A stretch of 64,000 nucleotides of DNA, taken from the NCBI GenBank assembly GCA_036377595.1, contig DASUYB010000006.1, positions 1 to 64,000 of the forward strand. The letters run 5' to 3'. The notes beneath the pieces were generated by a model. The model saw only the letters and a list, made by a program, of their open reading frames with translations, did no database searches and had not been told where the DNA came from. The stretch is from Longimicrobium sp. (GTDB taxonomy: Bacteria; Gemmatimonadota; Gemmatimonadetes; Longimicrobiales; Longimicrobiaceae). Below are positions 44,103-64,000 of this stretch, piece after piece; position 1 is the first letter of the stretch, and every line of letters begins with the position of its first letter. The translations under genes were made by a program, and so were the position numbers.

Positions 44103-44588
44103 GCGCGGCGTGAGGATTGACGCCACGCGTCGAAGTCTCCATAAAATGGACGATCGAACGTACACTGCAGGAATGAATCATCTGCTACAAAAAAGAGGAC
44201 CAGCCTTGATCGGAAATTGAGCTGTGATTGTCACCAATTGTGCGACAGCGTAAATAGAGGTCATAACGTTCCTTCTGCGTGATCGAATCCCCTCCACATA
44301 CAAACGTTCCTTCCGCAATCGTTTACAAGTGGATCTGTAGACAAAGTGCTGGGGGTGGCGTGTTCGGCAAACCTTCCTTAGCTTCGGTCTGCCGCTCCGA
44401 AACGTGTCCGATCCGGCGCAACCCGAAACTGTGTTCTGATACGCGGACGGGCGGCTTCAGTCGAACTTACGGACAAACGCATGTTTGCTGAGACGCAGGG
44501 TGTGGACACCGTCCACCCGCGTCGTCCAACCCCACCACGGATCCGCGCACGGCGCATTTTGCGCCGCCGCGCGATCGGGAGGTGCAGC
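44103..44588. other. AT-richer intergenic region upstream of the YVTN-T2SS operon
   Basis: Clearly lower GC than its flanks, with runs such as aaaaaagagg and taaatagagg. It probably holds the promoter of the 46-kb-region secretion operon. The short frames here are not protein-like. A fragment resembling family C (gacgggcggcttcagtc) lies near 44446-44462. Confidence 0.5.
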
Positions 44589-46649: not shown

Positions 46650-48139
46650 TCGCCCCGCTCGCCGCGGCCAGCGGCCCGGTGCGCGCGGACGAGCTTCCCG
46701 CGCAGGACTTCCTCGAGGACGCCCGCCTCCTCCCCCGCGAGCGGGCCGGGGGACGGCTGCGCGTGGCCTTCTCCGGCCGCCCCGATCCCCAGGCCGTCGC
46801 CGAGCTGGAGGTGCTGTTCGGCCTTCCCGTGGAGCTGGAGCCGGTGGCCGAGGCCGAGCTGCTGGACGAGATCCGCCGCGCCTGCGGCCAGCCCACCGCC
46901 GCGTCCTTCGCCGCCGGGCTGGGCGTCGACGGGGTGGTATCGACGGGAGATGCCGATCTCGTCGCGCACGACCTGGAGGAGATCGCCAACCAGGCGCCCG
47001 TCGTCCGTCTCGTCAATCTCCTCCTCGCCGAGGCGGTCGAGGCGGGCGCCAGCGACGTCCACCTCGAGGCCGAAGCGCGGGCGATGCGGGTGCGCTACCG
47101 CGTAGACGGCGTGCTGCAGGACGCGCCGTCGCCGCCTCCCCATCTCCGCGCCGCCGTGGTCAGCCGGCTGAAGATCATGGCCGAGCTCGACATCGCCGAG
47201 CGACGGATGCCGCAGGACGGCCGCGTGCGGCTGCGCACGGCCGAGCGCGAGCTGGACGTGCGCGTCTCCACGCTGCCGACGCTGCACGGCGAGTCCGTCG
47301 TCCTGCGCCTGCTGGACGTGGAGGGGCAGCGCTTCGACCTGGCCGGACTGGGGATGGCGGACGACACGCTGGCCGCGCTCCTGGGCTTCGCGGCGCGGCC
47401 GCACGGCGTGCTGCTGTCGACGGGGCCGACGGGGAGCGGGAAGACGACCACGCTGTACGCGCTGCTGGAGCGCATCCGCACCGGCGGCGAGAAGATCGTC
47501 TCGGTCGAGGACCCGGTGGAGTACGAGCTCCCCGGCGTGGCCCAGGTCCCCGTCCACGCGCGGCTGGGGCTCACCTTCGCGCGGGCGCTGCGCTCGATCC
47601 TGCGGCAGGACCCCGACGTCCTCCTCGTCGGCGAGATGCGCGACCCGGAGACGGCGGAGATCTGCATCCAGGCCGCGCTCACCGGCCACCTCGTCCTCTC
47701 CACCCTGCACACCAACGACGCGCCCGGCGCGCTGACCCGGCTCGTGGACCTGGGCGTTCCCGACTACCTGGTCGCGTCGACGGTGCAGGCGGTGCTCGCC
47801 CAGCGCCTGGTCCGCCGTGTCTGCCCCGCCTGCGCGGAGGCGGTGGCACCGGATTCCGCGGTGGCGCGGGAGATGGCGGCGGCGGGGTTCGCCGCGGACC
47901 GGGTGCTCCGGGGGCGTGGCTGCGGGGCGTGCCGGGGGACGGGATATCGAGGAAGGACGGGGATCCACGAGTTGCTGACGGTGGACGACGGCCTGCGCGC
48001 GGAGCTCCTCCGCGCGCCGGGGACGGACGGGCTGCGGCGCGTCGCCCTCGCGGGGGGGATGCGGCCGCTGCGCGCGGACGGCTGGCGGCAGGTGGCCGCC
48101 GGCGTCACCACACCCCAGGAAGTGCTGAGGGTTGCATGA
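46646..48139 (+). CDS. gspE: type II secretion ATPase GspE
   Basis: 497 residues from GTG 46646. A short N-terminal GspE-N domain precedes the ATPase. Walker A is GPTGSGKTTT (Lys266), the Asp box is VSVEDPVEYELPGV, Walker B is DVLLVGEMRDPETA, and the His box is LSTLHTNDAPGAL. A zinc tetracysteine of two CxxC pairs (CPAC and CGAC) follows. It powers pseudopilus assembly from the cytoplasmic face. It is translationally coupled at both ends (YVTN gene upstream, gspG ATGA downstream). Confidence 0.95.
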   Translation: MIAPLAAASGPVRADELPAQDFLEDARLLPRERAGGRLRVAFSGRPDPQAVAELEVLFGLPVELEPVAEAELLDEIRRACGQPTAASFAAGLGVDGVVSTGDADLVAHDLEEIANQAPVVRLVNLLLAEAVEAGASDVHLEAEARAMRVRYRVDGVLQDAPSPPPHLRAAVVSRLKIMAELDIAERRMPQDGRVRLRTAERELDVRVSTLPTLHGESVVLRLLDVEGQRFDLAGLGMADDTLAALLGFAARPHGVLLSTGPTGSGKTTTLYALLERIRTGGEKIVSVEDPVEYELPGVAQVPVHARLGLTFARALRSILRQDPDVLLVGEMRDPETAEICIQAALTGHLVLSTLHTNDAPGALTRLVDLGVPDYLVASTVQAVLAQRLVRRVCPACAEAVAPDSAVAREMAAAGFAADRVLRGRGCGACRGTGYRGRTGIHELLTVDDGLRAELLRAPGTDGLRRVALAGGMRPLRADGWRQVAAGVTTPQEVLRVA

Positions 48140-48783
48140 AGATGGACCGGCTGGAGCTGTCCGAGATCGTGGAGCGCATCCTGTCCGCGCCGCCGCGCCC
48201 CGCCCACGCCATCGCCGCCGAGCGCAGGGCGCACCTCGACGCGGAGCCGTCCCCCGAACCCGGGCGCAGGGCGCAGCTCGACGCGGAGCCATCCCCCGAC
48301 CCCGAACCCGGGCCGCAGGCGCCGCACGGCCGCCACTGGCCCGCCGCGCTCCGGCAGCGCCGGCCGCTGATGGGCTTCACCCTGATCGAGGTGCTGGTGG
48401 TGATCGTGGTGATCACCGTTCTCGCCACCCTCGTCGCACCCAACGTCTTCCGCCACGTGGGCGGCGCGAAGGAGGCGACCGCGAAGACGCAGCTGGAGAT
48501 GCTGGGCTCGGCGGTGGACGCGTACCGGCTGGACAACGACGAGTATCCCACCACCGAGCAGGGGCTGGCCGCGTTGCGCGCCCGCCCCGCCGCCGGCCCG
48601 GCGCCGCGCAACTGGCGGGGGCCGTATCTCCGCCGCGACGTGCCGCTGGACCCGTGGGGGCGCCCCTACCTCTACCGCAGCCCGGGCGCGGCGAACCCCG
48701 AGGGCTACGACCTGCTGACGCTGGGCCGCGACGGCCGCGAGGGCGGCGACGGCGAGGACGCCGACGTGCTGGGGTGGAAGTAG
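48136..48783 (+). CDS. gspG: major pseudopilin GspG with an unusually long leader
   Basis: 215 residues from ATG 48136, overlapping the gspE stop. The prepilin site is near residue 78 (RRPLMG/FTLIEVLVV), so the leader is ~78 residues instead of the usual 5-10. It carries a tandem repeat (RRAHLDAEPSPEPG then RRAQLDAEPSPDPEPG). The mature part is standard: hydrophobic helix, KTQLEMLGSAVDAYRLDNDEYPTTEQGL, then DPWGRPYLYRSPG and a GREGGDGEDADVLGWK calcium loop. ATG 48369, just before FTLIE, would give a leader too short for the peptidase. Without GspG no pseudopilus forms. Confidence 0.9.
   Translation: MKMDRLELSEIVERILSAPPRPAHAIAAERRAHLDAEPSPEPGRRAQLDAEPSPDPEPGPQAPHGRHWPAALRQRRPLMGFTLIEVLVVIVVITVLATLVAPNVFRHVGGAKEATAKTQLEMLGSAVDAYRLDNDEYPTTEQGLAALRARPAAGPAPRNWRGPYLRRDVPLDPWGRPYLYRSPGAANPEGYDLLTLGRDGREGGDGEDADVLGWK
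48223..48312 (+). repeat. tandem coding repeat in the GspG leader
   Basis: Two units of 42 and 48 bases, starting cgcagggcgca(c/g)ctcgacg and ending cccgaacccggg. The second has six extra bases. Near-identity implies a recent duplication. Confidence 0.85.
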
Positions 48784-48788
48784 CCGCC

Positions 48789-50000
48789 ATGCCCGCCTTC
48801 GCCTGGCGCGCCGCGACGTCCGCGGGCCGCACCGTCCGCGGCGTGGAGGACGGCGACACCGCCGCCGCCGTGGAGCGGCGCCTGGGCGAGCGCGGGCTGT
48901 TCGCGCTGGAGGTGTCGCCCGCGACGGCGGCGGCGCGCGCGGAGGAACGGCCGCGCGCGGCGTTCCGCGGCCGGCGCGCGGACGTGGCGGAGGCGGTCCG
49001 GTATCTCGCGACGCTGCTGGAGGCGGGCTTTCCGCTGGACCGCGCGCTGGCCGCCGTCAGCCGCGTGGTCGCCCGGCGCGACGTGGCGGCGGCGGTGCTG
49101 GAGGTGCGCGACCGGGTGCGCGGCGGCGCGCGGCTGGACGAGGCGATGGCCGCGCACCCGTCCGTCTTCCCGCGCTTCGCGGTGGGGATGGTGCGCGCCG
49201 GCGAGCGCGGCGGGACGCTGGCGCCGGCGCTGGACCGGCTGGCGGGACAGATGGAGCGCGACCTGGCGCTGCGCTCGAGACTGGCCTCGGCGATGGTCTA
49301 TCCCGCCGTCGTCGCCGCGGCGGGGGCGGGCGCGCTGGGGGTGCTGTTCGCGTGGGTGCTGCCGCGCTTCGTGGCCCTGCTGGCCGACACCGGCTCCGCC
49401 ATCCCCCGCTCCACGCAGCTGCTGCTGGACGCGGGGAAGTTCGCCGCCGCGTGGTGGTGGGCGCTCCTCCTCGCGCCGCTGGTGGTCGCGGCGGTCGTGG
49501 CGGGGGTGCGCTCGTCGGACGAGGGGCGCGCGGGGGTCGACCGGGTGCTGCTCTCGATCCCGATCGTCGGGGGACTGCGGCGGCGTGCGGCGGCGGCGCG
49601 GCTGGCACGGACGCTGGCGGCGCTGCTGGAGAGCGGGCTGCCGATCCTGGGCGCGCTGGAGGTGGCCGCCGCCAGCCACGGCGACGCCGCCGTCGCCGGC
49701 GAGGTGCTGCGCGCCCGCGAGGACGTGCGCGCCGGCGACCGGCTGGCGGCGGCGCTGCGGCGGAGCCCCGCCTTCCCCTTCCTCTTCGTGCAGATGGTCG
49801 AAGTCGGGGAAGACGCCGGGCGATTGCCGGAGATGCTGGAGCGCGCCGCCGCCGCGATGGAGGGCGAGCTGGAGCGCGGGCTGGACCGGCTCCTCCGCCT
49901 GGTCGAGCCGGTGATGATCGTGTTCTTCGGCGTGCTCGTCGGACTCGTCGCGCTTTCGCTCCTGCAAGCGATCTACGGCATCCGGCCGGAGGGGCTGTGA
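48789..50000 (+). CDS. gspF: type II secretion inner-membrane protein GspF
   Basis: 403 residues starting MPAFAWRAATSAGRTVRG, the usual GspF opening. It contains two T2SSF helical domains (RYLATLLEAGFPLDRALAAV and LARTLAALLESGLPILGALE) and three membrane segments (around 170-190, 220-245 and the final VMIVFFGVLVGLVALSLLQAIYGI). It forms the central platform that couples GspE to the pseudopilus. It starts 5 bases after the gspG stop. Confidence 0.93.
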   Translation: MPAFAWRAATSAGRTVRGVEDGDTAAAVERRLGERGLFALEVSPATAAARAEERPRAAFRGRRADVAEAVRYLATLLEAGFPLDRALAAVSRVVARRDVAAAVLEVRDRVRGGARLDEAMAAHPSVFPRFAVGMVRAGERGGTLAPALDRLAGQMERDLALRSRLASAMVYPAVVAAAGAGALGVLFAWVLPRFVALLADTGSAIPRSTQLLLDAGKFAAAWWWALLLAPLVVAAVVAGVRSSDEGRAGVDRVLLSIPIVGGLRRRAAAARLARTLAALLESGLPILGALEVAAASHGDAAVAGEVLRAREDVRAGDRLAAALRRSPAFPFLFVQMVEVGEDAGRLPEMLERAAAAMEGELERGLDRLLRLVEPVMIVFFGVLVGLVALSLLQAIYGIRPEGL

Positions 50001-50261: not shown

Positions 50262-51671
50262 ATGATGAGCGGACCCCGACCCACACGCGGGTTCCACATT
50301 CGCCCCGCGCGCCTGGCGCTGGCGCTGGCGCCCGACCACCTGGTGGCGGTGCGGCTGCGCGGGCTGCTGGCGCCGCGGCCGGCCGAGGTGCTGTCGTGCC
50401 CGCTGGCGCCCCCCGAGGTGGACGGCTGGCCGGCGCTGGAAGAGGCGCTGCGCGACCTGTCGCGCGAGCTCGGCGTGGCGCGCGGCACCGTCGACGTCGC
50501 GCTGCTGCGGCGGCTGGCGCACGCGCGCGTCCTGCCGCTGCCGCCCGTGCGCCGCGGCGAGCTGGCCGCACTGGTCCGCCGCGGGGCGCGCCGCCACTTC
50601 GCGGTGCGCGACGAGGCGCTGGTGGCCGACGCCGTGCGCCTCCCCCTCCCCCACGCGGGCACGCTCGCACCGGCGCTGGCGGCGTGCGCGCCGGCCGCGC
50701 TCGCGGAGACCATCGCCGCGGCGTGCGCGGCGGCGGGGTTCCGCGTGGGGACGATGGTGCCCGCCGCGGCGGCGCTGGCGGCGGGCGTCCGCGCGCTCGT
50801 TCCCTCCGCGCGCTTCGGGCGCACCGCCGTCGTCGCCTGCACCGCGGCCGGGCCCGAGCTGCTGATGCTGGCGGCGGGGCAGCCCGCGCGCATCCAGCCC
50901 CTCGCCGCGTCCACATCTCCCGAATCCCCCACGCTTTCCGACCGCGTCCTCGCCGCGCTGCATGGGGACGAGGAGCTGGCGGCGTGCACCGTCGTCGCCG
51001 TCTGCGGGGCCGAGGACGGCGCGGCGGAGGTGCGCGAGGCGCTGATGGACGACGAGCGCTTCGCCGGGCGCGTCGCATCTTCCCACGCGCTGAAGCGGCT
51101 TCCCGCCGAGGCGGTGATCGCGCTCGGCGCCGCGCGCGCGGGCGGCTCGGCGCCCGCGCTCCTTCCCGAATCCATCCTCGTCTCCCGAACCAGATCCGCG
51201 AAGCGGCGGGCGATCGCCTTCTCCGCCGCGTCCGCCGTGCTGCTCGCGTCCGCCGGGGCGATGCACCTGGACGGCGTGCGGCGCGAGGTGGCGGCGGTGG
51301 AGGCGCGGCGGCGGGAGATCCGCGAGCCGGTGGGCGACGCGCTGGAGGCGCGCGCGGCCGTGGAGCGCGTCCGCGGACGGCTGACGACGCTGGCCGCGCT
51401 CGAGGCCGCGTCGCCCGCGTGGACGGGCGAGATCGCCGCGCTGGCCCGCGCGCTCCCCGACTCGGCGCATCTCCGCACGCTGACCGCGGACTCGGCGGGG
51501 ATGCGGCTGGCGGGGGTGGCGCGCTCCGCATCCGCCGTCGTCCCCGCGCTGGAGGCCAGCCGCCGCTTCGAGCGCGTCTCCCTGGCCGCGCCCGTCCGCT
51601 GGGAGCAGGGCGACGCCGGCGAGCGCTTCGACGTGGCCGCCTTCCGCGCGCCGCAGGGGAGGCAGAGATGA
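50262..51671 (+). CDS. gspL: GspL-like (PilM/PilN-type) secretion protein
   Basis: 469 residues. The N-terminal ~290 residues have the actin-like/PilM-style alternation (LALALAPDHLVAVRLRG; GRTAVVACTAAGPELLMLAAG), a single membrane helix near 314-330 (AIAFSAASAVLLASAGAM), and a C-terminal ferredoxin-like GspL/PilN periplasmic domain with LRTLTADSAGMRLAGVARS. It links GspE to the membrane platform. Assignment is by position and architecture more than by sequence identity. The stop overlaps gspM. Confidence 0.78.
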   Translation: MMSGPRPTRGFHIRPARLALALAPDHLVAVRLRGLLAPRPAEVLSCPLAPPEVDGWPALEEALRDLSRELGVARGTVDVALLRRLAHARVLPLPPVRRGELAALVRRGARRHFAVRDEALVADAVRLPLPHAGTLAPALAACAPAALAETIAAACAAAGFRVGTMVPAAAALAAGVRALVPSARFGRTAVVACTAAGPELLMLAAGQPARIQPLAASTSPESPTLSDRVLAALHGDEELAACTVVAVCGAEDGAAEVREALMDDERFAGRVASSHALKRLPAEAVIALGAARAGGSAPALLPESILVSRTRSAKRRAIAFSAASAVLLASAGAMHLDGVRREVAAVEARRREIREPVGDALEARAAVERVRGRLTTLAALEAASPAWTGEIAALARALPDSAHLRTLTADSAGMRLAGVARSASAVVPALEASRRFERVSLAAPVRWEQGDAGERFDVAAFRAPQGRQR

Positions 51672-52327
51672 GCCGCATCTCCATCACCCCGCGCGACCGC
51701 AAGGCGATCACGGTCGGCGCGGCCATCCTCGTTCCCGGGCTGATCTGGGCGTTCGCCGTCTCCCCGTATCTCCATGCCCTGCGGTCGGCCGAGTCGAAGC
51801 TGGGAGACGAGCGGCGGCTGCTGCGGCGCGAGCTGGAGCTGCTGGCCGAGGCCAGGGGCTATCCCGCCGCCTTCGCAGACGGGGCGAAAAAGCTGCTCGC
51901 CGTCGCGCCGCGGCTGACGGGGGGCGACGACGACGCGGCGGCGGGGGCGGCGGTCGCGGGCTACGTCCGCCGCCTGGCGCAGATGGGCGGCGCCAACGTC
52001 ACCCGCGTGGACCCCGCGCCCGTGCGCGACGCCGGCGGCGGCATCACCGCGCTCCCCGTCGCCGTGACGGGAGAGGCCGACCTGGAGGGGGTGATGAACC
52101 TCCTGCAGCTGCTGGAGACCGGCCCCAAGCTGGTGCGCGTGGACGAGCTGAAGATCGAGGCGCAGGACGGCCCCGTGGCCGCCGGCGCGGCGTACGCCCC
52201 CACGCCCTTCTTCGTCGCGGCGGGCGGGGGGAGCGAGGTGATCCGCTTCTCCTTCACCGCGACGGGATACACGCTGGCGACGGGGAAGCCCGTCCCCGCG
52301 GCGGACAGCGCGGAGGCGGGGCGATGA
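51668..52327 (+). CDS. gspM: GspM-like secretion protein
   Basis: 219 residues, ATG 51668 overlapping the gspL stop. The N-terminal membrane helix is ITVGAAILVPGLIWAFAVSPY, followed by a coiled coil (LRSAESKLGDERRLLRRELELLAEARG) and a periplasmic ferredoxin-like domain (GYVRRLAQMGGANVTRVDP). This is the GspM/PilO pattern. It stabilises GspL. It overlaps gspC by four bases (ATGA). Confidence 0.78.
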   Translation: MSRISITPRDRKAITVGAAILVPGLIWAFAVSPYLHALRSAESKLGDERRLLRRELELLAEARGYPAAFADGAKKLLAVAPRLTGGDDDAAAGAAVAGYVRRLAQMGGANVTRVDPAPVRDAGGGITALPVAVTGEADLEGVMNLLQLLETGPKLVRVDELKIEAQDGPVAAGAAYAPTPFFVAAGGGSEVIRFSFTATGYTLATGKPVPAADSAEAGR

Positions 52328-52848
52328 GCGCGCTGGCGCGGTGGACGCTCGCGGCGCGCGTCGCGGCCGCGGCGCTGGCGGGATCGGCGGCGCTGGCGGT
52401 GACGACCTTCGCCGCGTGGCGCCAGGTGGAGCCGCTCCCGCCCGCCCCGCGCGCGGAGAAGATCGCGGCGATGCCCGAGGTGCGCGTCCCCCGGCGCGAC
52501 GCGTCGGACGGCGTCGTCCTCGCCGCCGTCGCGCGCGACCCCTTCCGCGCGGACCGCAGGCGGCCGCCGGGGCGCTACCGCATGCCCGGCGAGCCGGCGC
52601 CCGCGCCCGTCGACGCGCCGCAGCTTCCCGTCACCCAGCCGCCGCCCGTGTACGCCTACCGCCTCCTCGGCACCGTCGTGCTGGAGAGCGGCGGGCTGGC
52701 GGCGCTGGCCGGGCCCTCGGGCGAGGGGAAGATCGTCAGGCTCGGGCAGCAGATCGACCAGTTCCGGCTGGTGCGCGTGACCCCCGGGAGCGCCACCCTG
52801 GCCGGAAGCGACACCACCCTCGTCCTGCGCACCGGAGGCTCGGAGTGA
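52324..52848 (+). CDS. gspC: GspC/PilP-like secretion protein
   Basis: 174 residues with an N-terminal membrane helix (AARVAAAALAGSAALAVTTFAA) and a Pro-rich linker containing RDPFRADRR. A small HR-type beta domain follows, with YRLLGTVVLESGGLAALAGP, KIVRLGQQIDQFRLVRVTPGSATL and LRTGG. The beta domain normally binds the secretin N-domain. No PDZ domain is present, so it is shorter than classical GspC. Confidence 0.75.
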   Translation: MSALARWTLAARVAAAALAGSAALAVTTFAAWRQVEPLPPAPRAEKIAAMPEVRVPRRDASDGVVLAAVARDPFRADRRRPPGRYRMPGEPAPAPVDAPQLPVTQPPPVYAYRLLGTVVLESGGLAALAGPSGEGKIVRLGQQIDQFRLVRVTPGSATLAGSDTTLVLRTGGSE

Positions 52849-53018: not shown

Positions 53019-54758
53019 ATGATGCGGATCCTGGTCGCCGCCGCGGCCACCGCGCTCCTGGCGGCGCCGCACCTGTACGCGCAGCAGCAGCCCGCGGGCG
53101 TGGTGCGCACCCCGGGCGGCGTGCAGGTGGACTTCCAGAACACCGACATGCGCCTGGTGGTCGCCGCGCTGGCGGACGCGGCGGGGCTGAACGTGGTGTA
53201 TGGCGACCTGCCGCAGAAGGCGGTGACGCTGCGCACCAGCACCCCCGTTCCCCTCGCCCAGGTGCGCGTGTACCTGAGCTCGCTGCTGCAGGCCAACGAC
53301 CTGGAGCTGAAGGACGAGGGAAGCGGACTGCTGCGCATCGTTCCCCGCGCGGGGTCGGCGCAGGCGGTCGCGCAGCCGCAGGCGCAGCAGGCGTACGCGG
53401 GGCCGCAGGACGGCTCGGTGCGCGTGTTCGTGTACCGCCTGCGCCACGCCCCGGCCGAGGACATGGCGCGCAGCATCGGCGCGCTCTTCGGCATCGGCGA
53501 CGGCGGCGTGGCGGCGCACCCCGACCGCGCGCAGTCGCTGACCGAGCAGCTGCGCGGCCAGTCGCTCGACGCCAACGGCGACCCGCGCGTGCCCCGCCCG
53601 CAGGCGGGGCTGAACGCGGGGCTGCAGGGGCAGGTGCAGGTGTTCGCCGACTCGCGCACCAACGCGCTGCTGATCCGCGCCACGCCGGCCGATTACGAGA
53701 CGCTGCGGCAGGCAATCGAGCAGCTCGACACGCGCCCGCTGCAGGTGATGATCGAGGTGCTGATCGCCGAGGTGCGGCGCAACAGCCAGTTCGGGCTGGG
53801 GATCGACGTGCGCGTTCCCCAGCACGAGATCAACGACAACGGCACCTCCATCGGCGGCGAGCTGGTGGGCGGGACGGCGGGCGACGTGGCGCTGCGCATC
53901 CTCAAGCTGGGCAACGTCGAGGCGAACGTCATCATCCACGCGCTGGCCGCCAGCGGCGACGTCACCATCCTCTCCCGCCCCGTCATCCTGGCGCAGAACA
54001 ACGAGGCGGCGCGCATCCTGGTGGGCGACCAGCGGCCGTTCATCCAGATCTCCCGCTCGTTCCCCACCGACAACGCCGCGCGCGACCAGGTGATCCAGTA
54101 CCGCGACGTGGGCACCCAGCTCACCATCCGCCCCACGGTCAACCCCGACGGCTACGTGACCCTTTCCGTGCTGCAGGAGGTGAGCAATGCGACGAACGAG
54201 ACGCAGTTCGGCGCGCCGATCATCTCCACGCGCGAGGCCGAGACGCGGCTGCTGGTGAAGGACGGCCACACGGTGGTGATCGGCGGGCTGATCGACCACC
54301 AGCGCGACAGCAACAACTCGGGCGTCCCCCTGCTGAAGGACATCCCCCTGATCGGCGGGCTCTTCCGCTCCACCAGCCGGCAGAAGACGTCGACGGAGCT
54401 GTTCCTCTTCCTGATTCCCCACGTGCTGTACAGCGACGAGGACGTGGACGGCGCCACGCGGCGGGTGCGCGAGCGCACGGAGCGGCTGGACCGCGCGCTC
54501 CCGGACAGCATCCCGCTGTTCTGGAAGGAGAGCCAGGACACCACCGCCGCCCCCGTCGGCACTCCCACCGGCCGCCGGACGAGACCGATCGTCGCGCCGG
54601 CGCCGGCCGCGCCGCCGCCCGCGCAGCCGCAGCCCGTGGCGCCGTCGCCTGCGCCGGAGCAGCCTGCGCAGCCGCAGCCGCCCGCGCCGCAGGGCGGGGG
54701 GACGGCGCCGGAGTCGGACGCGGAGGACGTGATGGCGAGCGAGAGGCGCGGGCGATGA
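53019..54758 (+). CDS. gspD: type II secretion outer-membrane secretin GspD
   Basis: 579 residues from ATG 53019 (ATG 53022 is equivalent). The signal peptide is MRILVAAAATALLAAPHLYAQ. The N domains begin VQVDFQNTDMRLVVAALADAAGLNVVYG, with repeats such as VFADSRTNALLIRATPADYETLRQAIEQLD. The secretin core includes VMIEVLIAEVRRN, SRPVILAQNNEAARILVGDQ, VGTQLTIRPTVNPDGYVTL and VVIGGLIDHQRD followed by GVPLLKDIPLIGGLFR. A Pro/Gln-rich tail of ~70 residues ends it. It forms the export channel in the outer membrane. Confidence 0.95.
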   Translation: MMRILVAAAATALLAAPHLYAQQQPAGVVRTPGGVQVDFQNTDMRLVVAALADAAGLNVVYGDLPQKAVTLRTSTPVPLAQVRVYLSSLLQANDLELKDEGSGLLRIVPRAGSAQAVAQPQAQQAYAGPQDGSVRVFVYRLRHAPAEDMARSIGALFGIGDGGVAAHPDRAQSLTEQLRGQSLDANGDPRVPRPQAGLNAGLQGQVQVFADSRTNALLIRATPADYETLRQAIEQLDTRPLQVMIEVLIAEVRRNSQFGLGIDVRVPQHEINDNGTSIGGELVGGTAGDVALRILKLGNVEANVIIHALAASGDVTILSRPVILAQNNEAARILVGDQRPFIQISRSFPTDNAARDQVIQYRDVGTQLTIRPTVNPDGYVTLSVLQEVSNATNETQFGAPIISTREAETRLLVKDGHTVVIGGLIDHQRDSNNSGVPLLKDIPLIGGLFRSTSRQKTSTELFLFLIPHVLYSDEDVDGATRRVRERTERLDRALPDSIPLFWKESQDTTAAPVGTPTGRRTRPIVAPAPAAPPPAQPQPVAPSPAPEQPAQPQPPAPQGGGTAPESDAEDVMASERRGR

Positions 54759-55411
54759 GAGCGGTGTGGGCGCCGCCGGGGTTCCCCCCCACCCCCGGCC
54801 CCTCCCCCACGAGGGGGGAGGGATGGGGGAGGGGAGACCTCAGCGCGGCAGCTGGATTCGGCGCTGAGTTCCCCCCCGCCCCCGCGAAGCGGGGGAGGGG
54901 GCCGGGGGGAGGGGGCCGCCCGCGGCCGCGCACAGGGTCGCTCAGCAGTCCGAACCCTTTCCGCACGCTGAGTGGTTCCTACGGCTTCACGCTGCTGGAG
55001 ATGATGGTGGTGATGGCGATGCTGGCCATCGCGGCGGCGGTGGCCGTCCCCGCGCTGCGGCCGCCCCGCGAGCGCAGCGCCGGCGCGGCCGCCGACAGCC
55101 TGCTGCACGTCCTGGCCCGCGCGCGGGCGGATGCGGCGGCGCGCGGCGTCCCGGTCCGCGTGGAGGTGCGCGCGGGCGACGGCGCCTTCTCGGTGACGGC
55201 CGACGCGGACGGCGGCGCGCGCGACACGCTGGGCTCCGGCGTGCTCCCGCTCCCCGCGGACGGAAGGGTGATGGCGATGGGGAGCGCGGCGCGGGTCGGC
55301 TTCGACGCCACCGGCCGCGCCCGCGCCGACCGGATGCTCGTGACGGGGGAAGGAGGAGGGATTGAGATCGTGGTCGATGCGTGGAGCGGCGCCGCGCGCG
55401 CGGCTCGCTGA
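54755..55411 (+). CDS. gspH: minor pseudopilin GspH whose leader contains a family B palindrome
   Basis: 218 residues from ATG 54755, overlapping the gspD stop. The prepilin site is SYG/FTLLEMMVVMAM near residue 77. Residues ~7-60 of the leader (PPGFPPTPGPSPTRGEGWGR and onward) are an in-frame translation of the family B repeat. The mature part has the H/I/J-type hydrophobic helix and a beta-rich pseudopilin domain (AARGVPVRVEVRAGDGAFSVTADADGG). Either the start lies downstream (a rare non-ATG codon near 54960) or the repeat is really translated and then cut away with the leader. Confidence 0.82.
   Translation: MRAVWAPPGFPPTPGPSPTRGEGWGRGDLSAAAGFGAEFPPAPAKRGRGPGGGGRPRPRTGSLSSPNPFRTLSGSYGFTLLEMMVVMAMLAIAAAVAVPALRPPRERSAGAAADSLLHVLARARADAAARGVPVRVEVRAGDGAFSVTADADGGARDTLGSGVLPLPADGRVMAMGSAARVGFDATGRARADRMLVTGEGGGIEIVVDAWSGAARAAR
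54784..54941. repeat. two adjacent family B palindromes inside gspH
   Basis: The first unit pairs ggcccctcccccac with gggggagggatggggg-type sequence. The second is cccccccgcccccgcgaagc with its complement, followed by the tail ggggggagggggccg. Together they occupy the 5' part of gspH without breaking the frame. Confidence 0.75.
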
Positions 55412-55820
55412 CCGCGGCGGGTTCACGCTGATCGAGGCGGTCGTCGCGCTGCTGATCGTCGCGCTGGCGCTGGTGCCGCTCCTCGGCGCCGCGCGGCAGG
55501 CGCTCCGGTCCGAAGCGAGGGTCGGCCCCGCCCGCGAGGCCGTCGCGCTGGCGGAGATGCGGATGGAGGAGCTGTCGCTGCTCCCGGTGGACTCGCTGGC
55601 CGCGTATCTGTCCCCGCGCGCGGAACGGTTCCCGGCGCCGTACGGCCGCTTCATCTGGCACGCGCTCCTGCGCGGCGAGACGGAGTCGCCCGCGCTGGTC
55701 CGCGCCGCGGTGGTGGTCGACTGGACCGGCGGCAGCTACTCGCTGGAGACGACCTTCCATCGCACCGACATGCTGCCGGAGTTCAACTCGATGGCGGGGA
55801 TGCCGTCGGCGGCACCGTGA
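55362..55820 (+). CDS. gspI: minor pseudopilin GspI
   Basis: 152 residues from TTG 55362 (GGAGGAGGG just upstream); ATG 55377 is an alternative. It overlaps gspH by 50 bases. The prepilin site is DRGG/FTLIEAVVALLIVALALV, with the conserved Glu. A short beta domain follows, with ALAEMRMEELSLLPVDSL, as usual for GspI. It forms the tip complex with J and K. Confidence 0.88.
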   Translation: MRSWSMRGAAPRARLADRGGFTLIEAVVALLIVALALVPLLGAARQALRSEARVGPAREAVALAEMRMEELSLLPVDSLAAYLSPRAERFPAPYGRFIWHALLRGETESPALVRAAVVVDWTGGSYSLETTFHRTDMLPEFNSMAGMPSAAP

Positions 55821-55865
55821 AGCATCGGCGCCGGGAGGACGCATCCTGCCCGCCCCGGCGCGGAG

Positions 55866-55920
55866 GCCCCCTCCCCCGGCCCTCCCCCGCTGCGCGGGGG
55901 AGGGGGGAACTCAGCGCAGA
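55866..55920. repeat. GC-rich palindrome, family B copy (inverted)
   Basis: gccccctcccccggccctcc plus cccgctgcgcgggggagggg and ggaactcagcgcag, the reverse orientation of the other copies. It separates gspI and gspJ. Confidence 0.7.
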
Positions 55921-55955
55921 GGCTTGATCCTGCGTACGGATTACTGGCTTACCCG

Positions 55956-56690
55956 ATGACGAACCATCTCCGTTCGCAGTACGGTTTTACCCTCGTCGAA
56001 GTGCTCGTCGCCCTCGTTGTCGCGGGGGCGGTGTCGGCGGCGGCGTACGGCGTGGTGGGGGCGATGGCGGAGTCGCGGCGGGCGGCGGAGCGCGCGAGAG
56101 AGGCGGCGCTCCCCGGCGCGGGCGCGCGCCAGACGCTGCAGGAGTGGGTGCGCGCCGCGGCGCTCTTCGACGGCGGCGGCCCGTTGGCGGGCGCGGACCG
56201 GCGCGCGGCGGGCGTCCCGCGCGACGAGCTGGCCTTCGCGGTGGAGGACGGCGGCGCGCTGCGGCCGGGGCCGCGCCGCATCCGGCTGTGGATCGGCCGC
56301 TCCACCCTGGGGCCGTCGGGGCTGCTGGCCGAGGTGTCCGCGCTCGGCCCCCGCCCCGAGCCGGCGGAGACGCTCGTGGTGGCGCGCGCGGCGGGTGGGC
56401 TGGACGTGCGGTATCGCGTCACCATCCGCGAGCGGCAGGTGTGGCTGGACGCGTGGGCGTCGGACTCCGTCCTCCCCGAGGCGGTGGAGCTCCGGGTGAC
56501 GCCCGCGCAGGAGATCGCGGCCGACCCGCGGATGGGCGGCTTTCCCGGCCTGCTGCAACTTCCGCTGCGCGTGCCGCTCAGGCCCGGGCTGCAGACCCTG
56601 ACTGGAGGAACCGATGCGCGTGGGCCGGCGGGGATTCGCGCTGGTTGCGGTGCTGTGGGCGCTGGTGCTGGCTGCGGCCCTGGCCGCTGA
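55956..56690 (+). CDS. gspJ: minor pseudopilin GspJ
   Basis: 244 residues. Prepilin site SQYG/FTLVEVLVALVVAGAVSA near the N terminus, a normal 9-residue leader. The long GspJ-type beta domain contains RDELAFAVEDGGALRPGPRRIRLWI. It overlaps gspK by 77 bases, and its last ~25 residues, in the overlap, are low-complexity and Gly/Ala rich. Confidence 0.85.
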   Translation: MTNHLRSQYGFTLVEVLVALVVAGAVSAAAYGVVGAMAESRRAAERAREAALPGAGARQTLQEWVRAAALFDGGGPLAGADRRAAGVPRDELAFAVEDGGALRPGPRRIRLWIGRSTLGPSGLLAEVSALGPRPEPAETLVVARAAGGLDVRYRVTIRERQVWLDAWASDSVLPEAVELRVTPAQEIAADPRMGGFPGLLQLPLRVPLRPGLQTLTGGTDARGPAGIRAGCGAVGAGAGCGPGR

Positions 56691-57522
56691 CCTGCACGCC
56701 GGCGCGCGCGGCGACCTGCGCGGCGCCAGTGCCGCCCGCGACGCCGCCCGCGCCCGCTGGGCCGCGCGCGGCGGGCTGGCCCACGCCGAGGAGTCGCTCC
56801 GCGCGCGCCTCTCCGCCGCCTCCGCGCCGCCGCCCACCGACACGCTCGTGGTGGCCGCGGAGACGCTGGACTACGACGGCGTCGCGGTGCGGGTGACGGT
56901 GACCGACGCGCGCGCCCGGCTCCAGCTCAACCTGGCCACCGCCGCCGAGCTCCGCGCGCTGGCCTCAGCCGTGGGGATGTCGTCCGACCAGGCCTACGCC
57001 TTCGCCTACGCGGTGACGGGATGGCGGGTGAGCCGCGGCCCGCGGTGGATGGCTGCGCCGGAGGACACGCTGGCGCCGGCGCTCCGTCCCCCCGCGGGCG
57101 CCTTCCGCGCGGTCGAGGAGCTGCGCGAAGTGCCCGGCGTGACCCCCGCGGCGTACCGCGCGCTGGCGCCGCTCCTCAGCGTGGCGGGCGACGGGCGGGT
57201 GAACCTGAACTCCGCGCCGGCGGCGGTGCTGCTGACGCTGCCGGGGTTCGGTCCCGACGCGGTGCGCGCGGTGGTGGAGCGGCGGCGCGCGGCGCCCTTC
57301 CTCGGCGCGTACGAGGTCGTCGCCGCGCTCCCGGTGCTGTCGCGCGAGCGGGTGCAGGACCGCATGGCCGAGCTGCTCGCGCGCGCCGCCTTCGCCCCGC
57401 ACCACGCCGAGGTGCGCGTGGAGGCGCGGGGCGCGGGGCCGGCCGAGCGGGCGCGGATCCGCGCGGTGGCGGTGCTGGCCGGCGGCCGCCTGGCGCCGCT
57501 GGCGGAGATCGAGGAACGCTGA
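56614..57522 (+). CDS. gspK: minor pseudopilin GspK
   Basis: 302 residues. Prepilin-like start [21 protein letters not shown], with no Glu at +5, as is usual for GspK. The large helical domain includes [37 protein letters not shown] and [22 protein letters not shown] (the helix-hairpin-helix typical of GspK). It caps the pseudopilus tip. It is the last structural gene of the operon. Confidence 0.9.
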
Positions 57523-57550: not shown

Positions 57551-58621
57551 TTGATCGAGAAGATGCGGGAGCCCAGCCGTCCCATCGTCCCCTTCCGGAG
57601 CGCCGGCAGCGCCGCGGCGACCGCGCGCGTGCTTTCCGCGCCGGCCGCGGCGCCGCGCGAGGCCGCGGACGGCGCGTTCCTGGGGCGCAGCCCGCGCGTG
57701 CTGGCGGCGCTCGAGGTGGCGCGGCTGGTGGCCGACAGCACCGCCACCGTGCTGGTGCAGGGCGAGAGCGGAACGGGAAAGGAGCTGCTGGCCCGCATCG
57801 TCCACGAGCACAGCCGGCGCGCGCGCGGGCCGTTCGTGGCGGTGAACTGCGCGGCCATCCCCGAGACGCTGCTGGAGAGCGAGCTGTTCGGGCACGAGCG
57901 CGGCGCCTTCACCGGCGCGGCGTCGCGGCGGCTGGGGCGCTTCGAGCGGGCCAGCGGCGGCACGCTCTTCCTGGACGAGGTGGGCGACATGAGCCCCACC
58001 ATGCAGGCCAAGATCCTGCGCGTGCTGCAGGAGCACGAGATCGAGCGCGTGGGCGGCGACACCCCCGTGCGCGTGGACGTGCGCGTGGTGGCGGCGACGA
58101 ACCGCGACCTCGAGGCGGAGGCGGCCGCCGGCCGCTTCCGCGAAGACCTGTACTACCGGCTGGCCGTGGTCGTCGTCCAGCTTCCCGCGCTGCGCGACCG
58201 AGGCGACGACGTGGACCTGCTGGCGCGGCGCTTCCTGGAGACCTTCGCCGCCGAGCACGGGCGCCCGGTGCGCGGCGTGTCGCCCGACGCGGCGGCGCGG
58301 CTGCGCGCGTACACCTGGCCGGGGAACGTGCGGCAGCTGCGCAACGTGATGGAGCGCGCGGTGCTGATGGCCGACGGCGAGGTGCTGCGTGCCGAGCACC
58401 TCGCCCCCGAGGTGCTGGCGGCCACCGCCGCGCCCGAGCCCGACGGCGACGGCCGCTTCCTTCCGCTGCGCGAGCTGGAGCGCCGCCACATCCGCCGCGC
58501 GCTGGACCTGTCCGGCGGCAACCTGGGCGACACCGCGCGGATGCTGGGCATCCACCGCAACACCCTGCGCCAGAAGCTCCGCCAGCTCGACGGCCGCAAG
58601 CCCGGCGACTCGGCCGTCTAG
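57551..58621 (+). CDS. sigma-54-dependent transcriptional activator without receiver domain
   Basis: 356 residues from TTG 57551 (ATG 57563 is the alternative). The AAA+ domain has Walker A GESGTGKE, the sigma-54 loop GAFTGA (118-123), Walker [13 protein letters not shown] and [11 protein letters not shown] Fis-type helix-turn-helix ends it ([21 protein letters not shown]). The N-terminal ~45 residues are not a response-regulator or GAF domain, so activity is probably set by expression or a partner protein (PspF-like). It lies 28 bases after gspK and is likely co-transcribed with the secretion operon or controls it. Confidence 0.9.
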
Positions 58622-58965: not shown

Positions 58966-59600
58966 AATGCCGCGGCACACTCCGATCCTTCATCATCATC
59001 CGAAAATTATCTCTTTTGTAGCGATATCCGGTCATTCCCCGGTCATCCGTCCGCGCGGACGACGGCCCTCCCGTCCCGGAGGCGCGGCGGCAATGTCGGC
59101 GCCGTCCATTCGCCCGTCATCGGGATGCGCGCCGCGGCTCCATCCATTCGGAATCCGGAGACGCGAATGTGCTGCTAATTCTTTATCACATCTCGATTTC
59201 CCACCTTGATGGCCCCACCCTTCTTCACCCTCACGCTCTCCCCCGATACACAGATCCTGTGCCTGCGACGGCGCCCGTGCACATGATCTGTGCATGATCG
59301 CCGCGTCAACGAAATGTCACATCGCGGCCCATCCTGCTCATCGTCAACAACTTGTCGTAAAACATCAGTTTGGAACACGGGTTGCCTTTGCGCGCCGCCG
59401 GACCCTCCCGCGCACCGGCACCCGCGCGCCAGCCCGGCTCCCGCTCGTGCAGCCGACCCGGCGTGCCGCGCCGTCCGCATCCCGCGCCACCACGCGCGCG
59501 CGGACGCGCGCCGCCCGGAGCCCGCGTGCCGCCGCGCGTGCCGGAGCGCGGGGGGCCCTACCCGGCTGCAACCCACACATCACCGGCAGGACGGACGCCC

Positions 59601-62600
59601 ATGCGACGAGCTCCCCAACCCCTGCCGCCGTGGCGCGGCGCGGCACGCCTGGCACTGGCGCTGCTGCTCGCGCTCGCGGGGGCCGTTCCCCTCCACGCCC
59701 AGTGCACGCGCACCAAGATCGCCAAGGTCGTGGCGCTGGAGCAGTTCATCTGGTACAACCGCCTGGGCGCCAACGCGCCCGACGCGCTGCTCTTCGCGCT
59801 GGAGCAGGACGTGGTGTCCAGCAGCGGCGGCGCCGCCACGACCGGCGACGCGCGGCTGCGCGACGGCCGGCGTCCGCGCCCGGTGGTGCTGCGCGTGAAC
59901 GCGGGCGAGTGCCTGCGGATCACGCTCCGGAACCTGCTGTCGCCGCAGAACGGCACGCACCCCGACACCACCCGCGCCGTCTCCATCCACGTGGTGGGGA
60001 TGCAGCTGGTGAACACCATCTCCGACGACGGCAGCGCCGTGCAGGCCAACCCCTCGTCGCTGGTGGAGCCGGGGAGCTCCATCACCTACACGCTGTTCGC
60101 CGAGAAGGAGGGCACCTACCTCCTGCATTCGGCCGCGCAGATGACCGGCGGCGAGGGCGACGGCGGGCAGATCGGCCGCGGGCTGTTCGGCGCGGTGAAC
60201 GTGGAGCCGCCCGGCGCCGAGTACTACCGCAGCCAGGTGACCGCCGAGGACATGCGGCTGGCCTCGCTCGACGCCTCGGGGAACCCGCAGTTCGTCAACG
60301 GCTACCCGAAGATCGACTACACCAGGCGCTACCTGTCCGGCCCGCTGAGCGGCCGCCCGATCCTGAACATGCTCAAGGGCGACACCATCGTGTGGTCGGA
60401 CATCAGCGCCATCATCACCGGCCCCAACCGCGGGAACTTCGCCGCCACGGCGTATCCCAACCCCGGGGTGCCCGTCTATCCGCAGCGGCTGAAGCCCTTC
60501 CGCGAGCACACGGTGATCTTCCACGACGAGGTGGGGCTGGTGCAGGCGTTCAACCCCATCTTCGACAGCACCACCTTCAAGCACACGCTGCACGGCGGGC
60601 GCGACGCCTTCGCCATCAACTACGGCACCGGCGGGATCGGCGCCGAGATCCTGGCCAACCGCTTCGGGCTGGGCCCCATGTGGCGGTGCAACGACTGCAA
60701 GTTCGAGGAGTTCTTCCTTTCCTCGTGGGCGGTCGGCGACCCCGCCATGGTGGTCGACATCCCCGCGGCGGCCGACTTCGACCCGGCGCATCCGCCGGCG
60801 CCGGGGCCGCGGGCGACGAAGGCGCTCTATCCCGACGACCCGTCGAACGTGTTCCACAGCTACGTGAACGACCACGTGAAGATCCGCAACCTTCACGCGG
60901 GGCCCAAGGAGCACCACATCTTCCACCTGCACGCGCACCAGTGGATCAACACGCCGAACGACTCGCTCTCCAACTACAAGGACAGCCAGGCGATCGGACC
61001 GGGCGCGGGCTTCACCTACGAGATCACCTACGGCGGCGGCGGCAACCGCAACGACACGCCGGGCGACGCCATCTTCCACTGCCACTTCTATCCCCACTTC
61101 GCGCAGGGGATGTGGGGGCTGTGGCGCAACCACGACGTGTTCGAGGGGGGCACGGTGCTGGGCACCGACGGCCGCCCCGCCCCGGGAAGCCGCGCGCTTC
61201 CCGACGGCGAGATCGCCGCGGGGACGCCGATCCCCGCCGTCGTCCCCATCCCCACCTACGCGCTGGCGCCGCTCCCGGCCGACAGCATGAAGGGGTATCC
61301 CTTCTACATCCCCGGCGTGGCCGGGCACCGGCCGCCGCAGCCGCCGCTGGACCTGGCGTGGGACGGCGGGCTGAAGCGCCACGTGGTCACCGGCGGGGTC
61401 AGCACCTTCCCGGCGCTGAACACCCGTGACTTCAGCAAGCACGACTCGCTGCTGACCGTCAACTTCCTCCCCGACACGGGCACCGTGGACGAGCGCGTGG
61501 CCATGCGCTTCCACGCGCGGCTGGGGTACCCGGGCCCCATCGCCGACAGCTGGCTGACCACGGGAACGTTCGAGACCAACGGCCTGCCGCCTACCTGGGG
61601 CGCGCCCTTCGCCGACCCCTGCGGGATCCGCGGGGTGCGCATGGGCGACTCGCTGGACTACAAGGCGGCCTCGTTCCAGATCACCGCCTTCTACAACAAG
61701 GCCAACTGGTCGTTCAGCCAGCACCGCATGTTCGGCCTGTGGGCCGACGTCAACGCCTTCATCGCGCAGACGAAGGCGCCCGAGCCGTTCTTCTTCCGCG
61801 CGCGCAACGGCTCGTGCCTGACCTACCACCTGGTGAACCTGATCCCGGCCGAGTACAACGTCGACGACTTCCAGGTGCAGACGCCCACCGACATCATCGG
61901 GCAGCACATCCACCTGGTGAAGTTCGACGTGACCTCGTCCGACGGCGCCGCCAACGGGTGGAACTACGAGGACGGCGCGCTGAGCCCCGACGCGGTGCGC
62001 GAGGTCATCCGCGCTATCCGCAGGCAGAACGGGTGCACCGGGCTCAACTCGGGAGATGCCAGGGACGGGACGAACGCCTGCCCCGTGGCCAGGTACCACC
62101 CCTACTCGGGCTTCCAGGGCAACCCCGCCTGGCTGGGGGCGCAGGAGAACATCCAGCGCTGGTGGGTGGACCCCGTCCCGCGCGGCGGCGGGAAGGCCAC
62201 GCCGCTCCCCACCATCTTCACGCACGACCACTTCGGGCCCAGCACGCACCAGCAGGTGGGGCTGTACGCCGGGCTGCTTCCCGAAGACTCGGGGACGGTG
62301 TGGCGCGACCCGGAGACGCTGGCGACGTTCGGCGGGCGCTTCGACGGCGGGCCGACCAGCTGGCGCGCCGACATCCTCTACACGGCCACCCCCAACCGCT
62401 CGTACCGCGAGTTCGGCATCCAGATCGCCGACTTCTCGCTCGCCTACGGCGCGGAAGGGTTCGTGGGGAACCTGGGCCGCACGCCGCCCATCAACCCCCC
62501 CGGCCGCGACGACGTGGGGCTGCCCTACCTGCTGCGCCCGCCGTTCGCGCGGGGCACCGGCGTGTGCCCCAACGGGATGTCGGCGGCGCTGGGGTGCCCC

Positions 62601-64000
62601 GAGATCATCTCCGCCGACGACCCGGGGATGATGCTGATCAACTACCGCAACGAGCCGGTGGCCCTGCGCGTCCGCAACCCCACGGGGAACGCGCAGCCGG
62701 CGGACAGCACCGGCGACCTGTCGCTGGCGTACTGGAACCGCGTGGTGCGGCGCGACGCCCGGCTCAACACCTTCGGGCCCTACGGCCAGCGGGTGGGCGA
62801 GCAGCCGCGCGACCCCTTCACCCCGCTGCTGCGCACCTACGAGGACGACCGCATCCTGGTCCGCCTGCTGGTGGGGGCGCACGAGGAAGGGCACAACTGG
62901 GGGATCAACGGCACCCGCTGGCTGTTCGAGCGGCTGGCGCCCAACTCGGGCTTCCGCGCCAGCCAGATGGCGGGGATCAGCGAGTGGCACGAGTTCGCGC
63001 TCAGCCCGCTGATGTCCAACCGGCGCGACAGCGTGGCCGATTTCCACTACCGCGGCGGCAGCGCGGTGGACGACCAGTGGGTGGGGCAGTGGGGGATCAT
63101 CCGCGCCTACCGCACCCCGCGGAAGGACCTGGCGCGGCTCGACGACTTCCGCCCCGTCTCCAGCAGCCGCGACGCGGCCGAGAAGGACGCGGCCGCGGGG
63201 CGTCTGGCCACCGTCGACGGCTACAACTCGTTCACCGTCAAGACGCAGTTCCCGGTGCCCGACGACTCGACCACGTGGAAGGGGAGCGTGGCCACGGCCG
63301 ACGCCACCTCGCCGTCGAGCAGCGGCCCCGTGGCCACGCGGATGGCCACGGCGGTGGCCACCTCGTCCGACAGCGTGCAGGCGGGGTACGGCAACGACGC
63401 GCAGGGCGGGATCGACTACGACCAGTTCGAGTACGACCCCGACACCGGTACCGAGACCGTGCTCTCGACGGACCCGAACGCGGGGACCAAGTCGCTGTCG
63501 CCCACGGGGAACACGGTGGCGCCGGCCACCCAGAGCGGGGCCACGATGTCGATGTCGGCGGCCACCACCACCAGTACCACCGAGTACAAGAGCCAGCCCG
63601 GCTCGAGCAACGTGGGCTTCTGGGGGGTGTGTCCGCGGGTGGCGCCGCTGCGCCTGTTCGAGATCAGCGCCATCCCGGCGTCGAAGCTGCCGGGCGGGCG
63701 GCTGGTCTACAACCCGCGGACCACGAATGGCGGGCCGCTGTACGACCCGACGGCGGTGGTCTACGTGTACGACGCCGATCTCAGCAACGGCCAGCTCACG
63801 CGCAACCCCGAGCCGCTGGTGCTGCGCGCCAACGCGGGCGACTGCGTGCTGGTGCGGCTGCGCAACCGGCTGCCGAGCGTGCTGCCCGACACCAACGGGT
63901 TCAACACGCTGCCGATGATCGTGGACCAGTTCAACGCCAACCAGGTGCGCCCCTCGGCGCGCGTGGGGCTGCACGCGCAGCTGGTGTCGCTCGACGTGCA
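59601..64000 (+). CDS. giant secreted multicopper oxidase (MofA/MnxG-like), 3'-truncated by window
   Basis: One uninterrupted frame of 1466 codons from ATG 59601 to the window edge. A signal peptide ends PLHAQ, after residue 34. It is a chain of cupredoxin-like domains. The main copper site is HHIFHLHAHQW (His442, 444, 446) with FHCHFYPHFAQGMW (His493, Cys494, His495, His499, Met504). Later domains repeat similar motifs: GQHIHLVKFD (His769, 771), THDHFGPSTHQQ (875, 877, 883) and EEGHNWGING (His1098). The size and motif order recall MofA- and MnxG-type oxidases, some of which oxidise Mn(II). The neighbouring type II secretion operon and His-rich propeller protein make export and metal oxidation plausible; this is inference. 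Confidence 0.9.
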   Translation, partial: MRRAPQPLPPWRGAARLALALLLALAGAVPLHAQCTRTKIAKVVALEQFIWYNRLGANAPDALLFALEQDVVSSSGGAATTGDARLRDGRRPRPVVLRVNAGECLRITLRNLLSPQNGTHPDTTRAVSIHVVGMQLVNTISDDGSAVQANPSSLVEPGSSITYTLFAEKEGTYLLHSAAQMTGGEGDGGQIGRGLFGAVNVEPPGAEYYRSQVTAEDMRLASLDASGNPQFVNGYPKIDYTRRYLSGPLSGRPILNMLKGDTIVWSDISAIITGPNRGNFAATAYPNPGVPVYPQRLKPFREHTVIFHDEVGLVQAFNPIFDSTTFKHTLHGGRDAFAINYGTGGIGAEILANRFGLGPMWRCNDCKFEEFFLSSWAVGDPAMVVDIPAAADFDPAHPPAPGPRATKALYPDDPSNVFHSYVNDHVKIRNLHAGPKEHHIFHLHAHQWINTPNDSLSNYKDSQAIGPGAGFTYEITYGGGGNRNDTPGDAIFHCHFYPHFAQGMWGLWRNHDVFEGGTVLGTDGRPAPGSRALPDGEIAAGTPIPAVVPIPTYALAPLPADSMKGYPFYIPGVAGHRPPQPPLDLAWDGGLKRHVVTGGVSTFPALNTRDFSKHDSLLTVNFLPDTGTVDERVAMRFHARLGYPGPIADSWLTTGTFETNGLPPTWGAPFADPCGIRGVRMGDSLDYKAASFQITAFYNKANWSFSQHRMFGLWADVNAFIAQTKAPEPFFFRARNGSCLTYHLVNLIPAEYNVDDFQVQTPTDIIGQHIHLVKFDVTSSDGAANGWNYEDGALSPDAVREVIRAIRRQNGCTGLNSGDARDGTNACPVARYHPYSGFQGNPAWLGAQENIQRWWVDPVPRGGGKATPLPTIFTHDHFGPSTHQQVGLYAGLLPEDSGTVWRDPETLATFGGRFDGGPTSWRADILYTATPNRSYREFGIQIADFSLAYGAEGFVGNLGRTPPINPPGRDDVGLPYLLRPPFARGTGVCPNGMSAALGCPEIISADDPGMMLINYRNEPVALRVRNPTGNAQPADSTGDLSLAYWNRVVRRDARLNTFGPYGQRVGEQPRDPFTPLLRTYEDDRILVRLLVGAHEEGHNWGINGTRWLFERLAPNSGFRASQMAGISEWHEFALSPLMSNRRDSVADFHYRGGSAVDDQWVGQWGIIRAYRTPRKDLARLDDFRPVSSSRDAAEKDAAAGRLATVDGYNSFTVKTQFPVPDDSTTWKGSVATADATSPSSSGPVATRMATAVATSSDSVQAGYGNDAQGGIDYDQFEYDPDTGTETVLSTDPNAGTKSLSPTGNTVAPATQSGATMSMSAATTTSTTEYKSQPGSSNVGFWGVCPRVAPLRLFEISAIPASKLPGGRLVYNPRTTNGGPLYDPTAVVYVYDADLSNGQLTRNPEPLVLRANAGDCVLVRLRNRLPSVLPDTNGFNTLPMIVDQFNANQVRPSARVGLHAQLVSLDV

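Follow-up and report, generated by a model that had tools for sequence, protein, structure and literature searches.

A MnxG-superfamily six-domain multicopper oxidase gene in a Longimicrobium contig and its type II secretion and sigma-54 gene neighbourhood

The six-domain architecture of large bacterial multicopper oxidases is already known and was described in 2013. As given in the passages of that survey used here, 23 prokaryotic proteins of 1,217-2,681 amino acids share the plan, among them proteins of P. putida GB-1 and Leptothrix, and in every bacterial six-domain protein surveyed there is one type-1 copper, in domain 2, with the trinuclear cluster shared by domains 2 and 3; in ceruloplasmin, domains 2, 4 and 6 each hold a type-1 copper and the trinuclear cluster is shared by domains 1 and 6 (Vasin and colleagues, PMC3600357). 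MnxG of Bacillus works together with the subunits MnxE and MnxF, according to part of the text of PMC5622069. Here we describe a gene for an oxidase of this kind in the first 64,000 bases (the window) of the 103,349-base contig C6 of a Longimicrobium genome of 7.2 Mb in 208 contigs. We consider it probable that its product is a secreted six-domain oxidase of the MnxG superfamily with a single type-1 copper and a single trinuclear cluster, exported by the adjoining type II secretion system (T2SS), switched by sigma-54 and likely to oxidise Mn(II) or Fe(II). The enzyme type itself is known and it is the gene cluster that is informative, the new detail lying in what precedes the oxidase: a propeller gene, a T2SS operon, a gene for a sigma-54 activator, and a promoter of the sigma-54 type that is found repeatedly across the family.

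The gene begins on the plus strand with an ATG at position 59601, and its frame stays open to position 64000, the window end, over 1,466 amino acids. An earlier note, made from the window alone, had called this a very large multicopper oxidase with at least 1466 residues in one frame and had proposed extending it to the stop; the full protein has 1,821 amino acids, its stop ending at contig position 65066. We favour the ATG at 59601 because it gives a signal-peptide-like start and the nearest relatives start similarly; residues 1-34 (59601-59702) form a probable Sec signal peptide, judged by eye from a hydrophobic stretch and an AxA-like site. The minus strand opposite the gene holds an open frame of 1,464 amino acids, which is a shadow of the GC-rich oxidase gene; in the searches made the plus frame is the one that has homologues. 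No second full copy of the oxidase was found in the source genome, and a paralogous duplication there was rejected on that ground.

The His and Cys motifs noted earlier stand at the same residues of the full translation. The general multicopper oxidase scheme, which we take to apply, makes these His groups motifs C, D, A and B, and this is also their order along the chain. Domain 2 carries EHHIFHLHAHQW and HCHFYPHFAQGMW: motif C (residues 437-448, 60909-60944, plus strand as for all features below) includes HIFHLH at residues 439-444, with the predicted type-1 ligand His439 and trinuclear ligands His442 and His444, and motif D (residues 493-505, 61077-61115) includes HCHFYPHFAQGM at residues 493-504, with predicted trinuclear His493 and His495 and type-1 Cys494, His499 and Met504. 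In domain 3, motif A (residues 768-775, 61902-61925) contains QHIH at residues 768-771, with predicted trinuclear His769 and His771, and motif B (residues 874-885, 62220-62255) contains HDH at residues 875-877, with predicted trinuclear His875 and His877, as well as H883. The domain 3 stretches QHIHLVKF and THDHFGPSTHQQ align with the matching His motifs of 9bxa, the Mnx H340A complex with MnxG of Bacillus sp. PL-12, and His499 falls on position 340 of that structure, the residue mutated in its title. None of the 12 predicted copper ligands varies among the 93/93 aligned family members, which argues that the motifs are not there by chance; as most of the relatives had been found through motifs C and D, independent evidence of conservation comes solely from motifs A and B (769, 771, 875, 877). 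This alignment was reached from 102 family frames by dropping nine (fragments, duplicates and two antisense frames), and L007 was replaced in it by P0001. Motifs C and D of domain 2 together with A and B of domain 3 are thus predicted to supply all the ligands of a single type-1 copper and a single trinuclear cluster.

Its sequence places the oxidase among the six-domain multicopper oxidases of the MnxG superfamily. Its best NCBIfam family is MnxG (NF041487; 1,247 bits, in four stretches), its only sequence match in the PDB is Bacillus MnxG in 9bxa (E 2.5e-89), and Pfam gives two weak cupredoxin matches only. An AlphaFold model of residues 35-1185 (predicted template modelling score, pTM, 0.86) has 9bxa as its best structural match (Foldseek E 7.5e-56; VIA Z 23.2, root-mean-square deviation 2.9 over 783 residues) and ceruloplasmin as the next, so that the comparison with MnxG proposed in the earlier note agrees in sequence and in fold. 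The C-terminal unit was modelled from L037, a homologue from Gemmatimonadetes isolate 0707_bin15 (pTM 0.85), and matches 9bxa and then two-domain laccases. Bacillus MnxG and the window oxidase have in common the six-domain plan, the C-D-A-B order and the type-1 His position (H340 and H499, respectively), with 32% identity over the 783 structurally aligned residues; they differ in length, with 1,227 amino acids in Bacillus and 1,821 here. MofA of Leptothrix and OmpB of Geobacter are likewise large secreted multicopper oxidases, a likeness drawn from their descriptions.

Comparison with hhalign resolves the oxidase into three homologous two-domain units, domains 1-2 matching domains 3-4 with E 3.3e-16 and domains 5-6 with E 3.9e-30, and domains 3-4 matching domains 5-6 with E 3.4e-35. 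The internal duplication of a cupredoxin module that had been suspected is in fact present, as three two-domain units (E 3e-16 to 3e-35). Even domains pair with even and odd with odd, and no direct homology between domains 1 and 2 or between domains 3 and 4 was detected by hhalign. Three two-domain cupredoxin units are also the plan of ceruloplasmin, and each unit resembles a small two-domain laccase.

Upstream of the gene, 230 bases ahead of the start codon, lies TGGAACACGGGTTGCC (59371-59386), a candidate -24/-12 promoter of the sigma-54 type. The exact pattern GGNAC-N5-TTGC, fixed after the window site had been seen, occurs upstream of 21 of the 91 family genes compared (two of the 93 upstream regions, shorter than 300 bases, were left out) as against 1.4 expected in shuffled sequences and 0 on the reverse strand; L027 and L111, which are identical, are both counted among the 21. 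The 13 Gemmatimonadota genes examined comprise seven with the exact pattern and six with one mismatch, one of the latter (L023) lying at a different distance and looking unlike the rest. A sigma-54 scan of the whole window by itself shows no excess (27 matches against a shuffle mean of 62), so that what is informative here is the upstream comparison alone. In P. putida the mnxG and mcoA promoters are predicted to be of the integration host factor/sigma-54 type, and Mn activates them in stationary phase, as stated in part of PMC11930936.

The genes that precede the oxidase on the same strand would fit such control and export. The cluster opens with a YncE/YVTN-type beta-propeller protein with a C-terminal YtkA-like domain (44481-46649; Pfam YNCE 3e-9, YtkA 4e-9), whose gene overlaps by four bases that of the T2SS ATPase GspE (46646-48139; T2SSE 2.8e-130). 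There follow the major pseudopilin GspG (48136-48783; T2SSG 5.7e-37), which is the single T2SSG match detected in the source genome, GspF (48789-50000; T2SSF 2.1e-56) and a stretch coding for GspL/PilN-like, GspM-like and small GspC-like proteins (50262-52848; PilN 4e-8, T2SSM_b 4e-9), the last of which (52324-52848) has no Pfam match and is called GspC-like by position only. The secretin GspD (53019-54758; Secretin 5.7e-47) is one of two secretins of the genome, and it is followed by GspH/I/J-like minor pseudopilins, assigned by eye from their prepilin-type GFTLxE starts, and GspK (55001-57522; T2SSK_1st 2e-7). Last before the oxidase comes a sigma-54-dependent activator with an AAA+ domain and a Fis-type helix-turn-helix (57551-58621; Sigma54_activat 6.8e-72, HTH_8 1.8e-13), in which Pfam found no receiver domain.

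To what extent is this neighbourhood shared? Among 80 related loci fetched via the family alignment, a propeller homologue is present in 67, 58 of which have it downstream of the oxidase gene and no more than 1.5 kb away, and GspE, GspG and GspF are each found in 21 and the sigma-54 activator in 20; many of the loci are cut by contig ends and these counts are therefore lower bounds. The conserved propeller is a concrete candidate for a partner gene. The window gene order is found again in G003 and G014, and the Gemmatimonadota loci L078 and L111 have the order oxidase, propeller, gspE, gspG, gspF, gspD. Seven of 41 near genomes carry a full-type oxidase, and all seven have T2SSG (E <1e-30) as against 6 of the 34 others, G019 among them. 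Pseudomonas MnxG (NF041487; L088) shares with the window oxidase the superfamily, the size class, the propeller neighbour and the sigma-54 promoter, and T2SS genes within 10 kb are a further likeness. The Pseudomonas Xcm/Xcp work reportedly concerns export of a Mn-oxidising factor. The library searched holds no paper in which MnxG goes with both multicopper oxidase and type II secretion, or with 'cryo-EM structure'; MnxG and Gemmatimonad occur together in two papers there, and the searched passages of one of these do not assign mnxG to the phylum. According to a figure legend of PMC8218464, the P. putida mnxG operon includes a gene of the beta-propeller lactonase family, and passages of the same paper describe mofB (a prolyl isomerase) and mofC (a cytochrome c) as partners of mofA; Pfam recognised neither in the ten neighbouring genes analysed, the only genes to which this search extended.

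Our proposal for the function of the oxidase is as follows. The signal peptide would take the protein out of the cytoplasm by the Sec route, and the adjoining T2SS would probably carry it across the outer membrane. There the type-1 copper (His439, Cys494, His499, Met504) would accept electrons from an extracellular metal, for which Mn(II) is the likeliest candidate and Fe(II) a possible one. The electrons would then pass to the trinuclear cluster of His442, His444, His493 and His495 of domain 2 and His769, His771, His875 and His877 of domain 3, which would reduce O2 to water; the sigma-54 activator would probably turn the gene on. Of this scheme, the fold, the pattern of ligands, the gene cluster and the promoter motif are observed; the substrate, the route of secretion and the regulation are inferred.

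Several points weigh against this proposal. The models hold no metal positions, and the clustering of the copper sites rests on the alignment to 9bxa; of the structure prediction that the earlier note had recommended, the match of the units to 9bxa was thus obtained, while the ligands were placed by alignment and not from the model. The score of 1,247 bits is under the curated MnxG equivalog cut-off of 3,100, which the P. putida relative L088 (3,893) and Aromatoleum (3,155) pass and which Gemmatimonadota L111 (1,464), Methanoperedens L042 (1,625) and Geobacter L070 (1,421) do not. By these scores, MnxG of the Pseudomonas type stands on one side of the cut-off and a broad sister group on the other, and the oxidase, being far under a threshold that P. 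putida passes, belongs to a sister lineage for which the substrate is inferred. A FastTree phylogeny of the 93 rows, whose deep forks are weak and whose root is arbitrary, likewise places Pseudomonas and Aromatoleum in one well-supported set and the window oxidase on a separate branch with Gemmatimonadota, Acidobacteriota, Myxococcota, Methanoperedens, Geobacter and others. As this large clade holds anaerobes (Methanoperedens, Geobacter, Jettenia), a reaction of Mn(II) with O2 should not be taken for granted. Finally, T2SSG is common in the phylum (112/298 genomes), so that the idea of a T2SS exclusive to oxidase carriers was rejected, and what links the two is where their genes lie; in G001, G006 and G018 the detected T2SSG and the oxidase are on different contigs.

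The alternative that we take most seriously, although we think it unlikely, keeps the architecture and assigns to the enzyme Fe(II) as natural substrate or a role in extracellular electron transfer or mineral contact, in the way suggested for OmpB of Geobacter. Family members are present in Geobacter, Pelobacter, Desulfuromonadaceae, Methanoperedens and Jettenia; OmpB is described in part of PMC5566968 as a multicopper protein that is homologous to MofA and without which Fe(III) oxide is not reduced, and the title of a 2006 paper, as listed in PMC3495685, has it secreted by an atypical type II system. The anaerobes in the family and the OmpB literature thus leave room for a role other than Mn oxidation. 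However, the full type-1 and trinuclear ligand set speaks for O2-reducing oxidase chemistry and the nearest solved structure is that of a proven Mn oxidase. The resemblance of each unit to two-domain laccases might instead suggest a large laccase-like oxidase acting on organics such as phenols or humics, but the whole-length match is to MnxG and not to laccases and the conserved neighbours are those of mnxG-type operons, which makes such an activity quite improbable.

Least probable of all, in our judgement barely credible, is the reading of the earlier note that the duplicated modules may hold more than one copper centre, as in ceruloplasmin with its three type-1 coppers. It can draw on the three homologous units, on ceruloplasmin as the next structural match after 9bxa and on the His that remain in domains 4 and 6 (H1094, H1098, H1704, H1706); H1094 and H1098 (62880-62894) sit within GAHEEGH and are, by the alignment of domain 4 to domain 2, a relic of motif C. 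Against this, hhalign places HYR- or FRD-type stretches opposite the HCH of domain 2: the facing stretches are HEEGHNWGINGTRW with FHYRGG in domain 4 and ARNHVFVLHGHVW with LFRDQASFGFDFGIW in domain 6, and both domains are without the Cys and without the His pair flanking it. The published survey, in the passages used here, also gives every bacterial six-domain protein that it covered just one type-1 site, in domain 2 (PMC3600357). Multiple full copper sites were accordingly rejected, as units 2 and 3 of the triplication lack ligands; in the preferred reading domains 4-6 are structural copies without copper.

With the preferred reading of a secreted metal oxidase, a MnxG-type oxidase with T2SS, propeller and sigma-54 switch would, if true, point to metal oxidisers in Gemmatimonadota, and the oxidation of Mn(II) influences how metals and carbon are cycled. 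More tentatively, and as a reading less likely than not, we suggest that oxidase, propeller, T2SS and sigma-54 control may be one inherited metal-oxidation export island in Gemmatimonadota that occurs in two gene orders, with the oxidase first (L078, L111) or last (the genus of the window), and in which a module of the oxidase linker might dock or anchor the enzyme at the cell surface.

This linker, rich in Ser, Thr and Ala and of low complexity, lies between domains 4 and 5 (63177-63614) and contains a GYG...FEYDP module, DSVxxGYGxxxxGGIxYExFEYDPxTGTE (63297-63530, residues ~1233-1310). The same module is present in small proteins of G000 (C50:2944-3306; L021/L139), G001 (C57; L141) and G008 (C367; L143); those of G000 and G001 start lipobox-like, and that of G000 has no Pfam match. 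Module matches occur in 5 of the 41 near genomes, each with an oxidase, and separate small proteins in three of these five.

A second protein family lies about 3.5 kb downstream of the oxidase in 41 of the 80 loci (flanks of L036-L115; representative L101:13366-15000); L037, L078 and L111, which are Gemmatimonadota loci, did not show it. A CorC-type transporter downstream was considered as a partner and rejected, being present in 0 of 121 loci searched. Copy number varies in the family: G003 has three copies in tandem (C91; L008, L015, L022), G001 has five (contigs C218, C285, C86, C69, C165), and Pseudomonas schmalbachii and P. jinjuensis (L082, L085) have three tandem copies each. G019, a genome of the same family, carries a distant oxidase (L014, L020, L026) nearer to Bacillus MnxG (9bxa E 2.5e-115, 969 amino acids). 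In L028 (G181) a C-terminal oxidase fragment is in frame with a methyltransferase-like start across masked N bases, a join that gives no real evidence of fusion, and a propeller-like gene follows.

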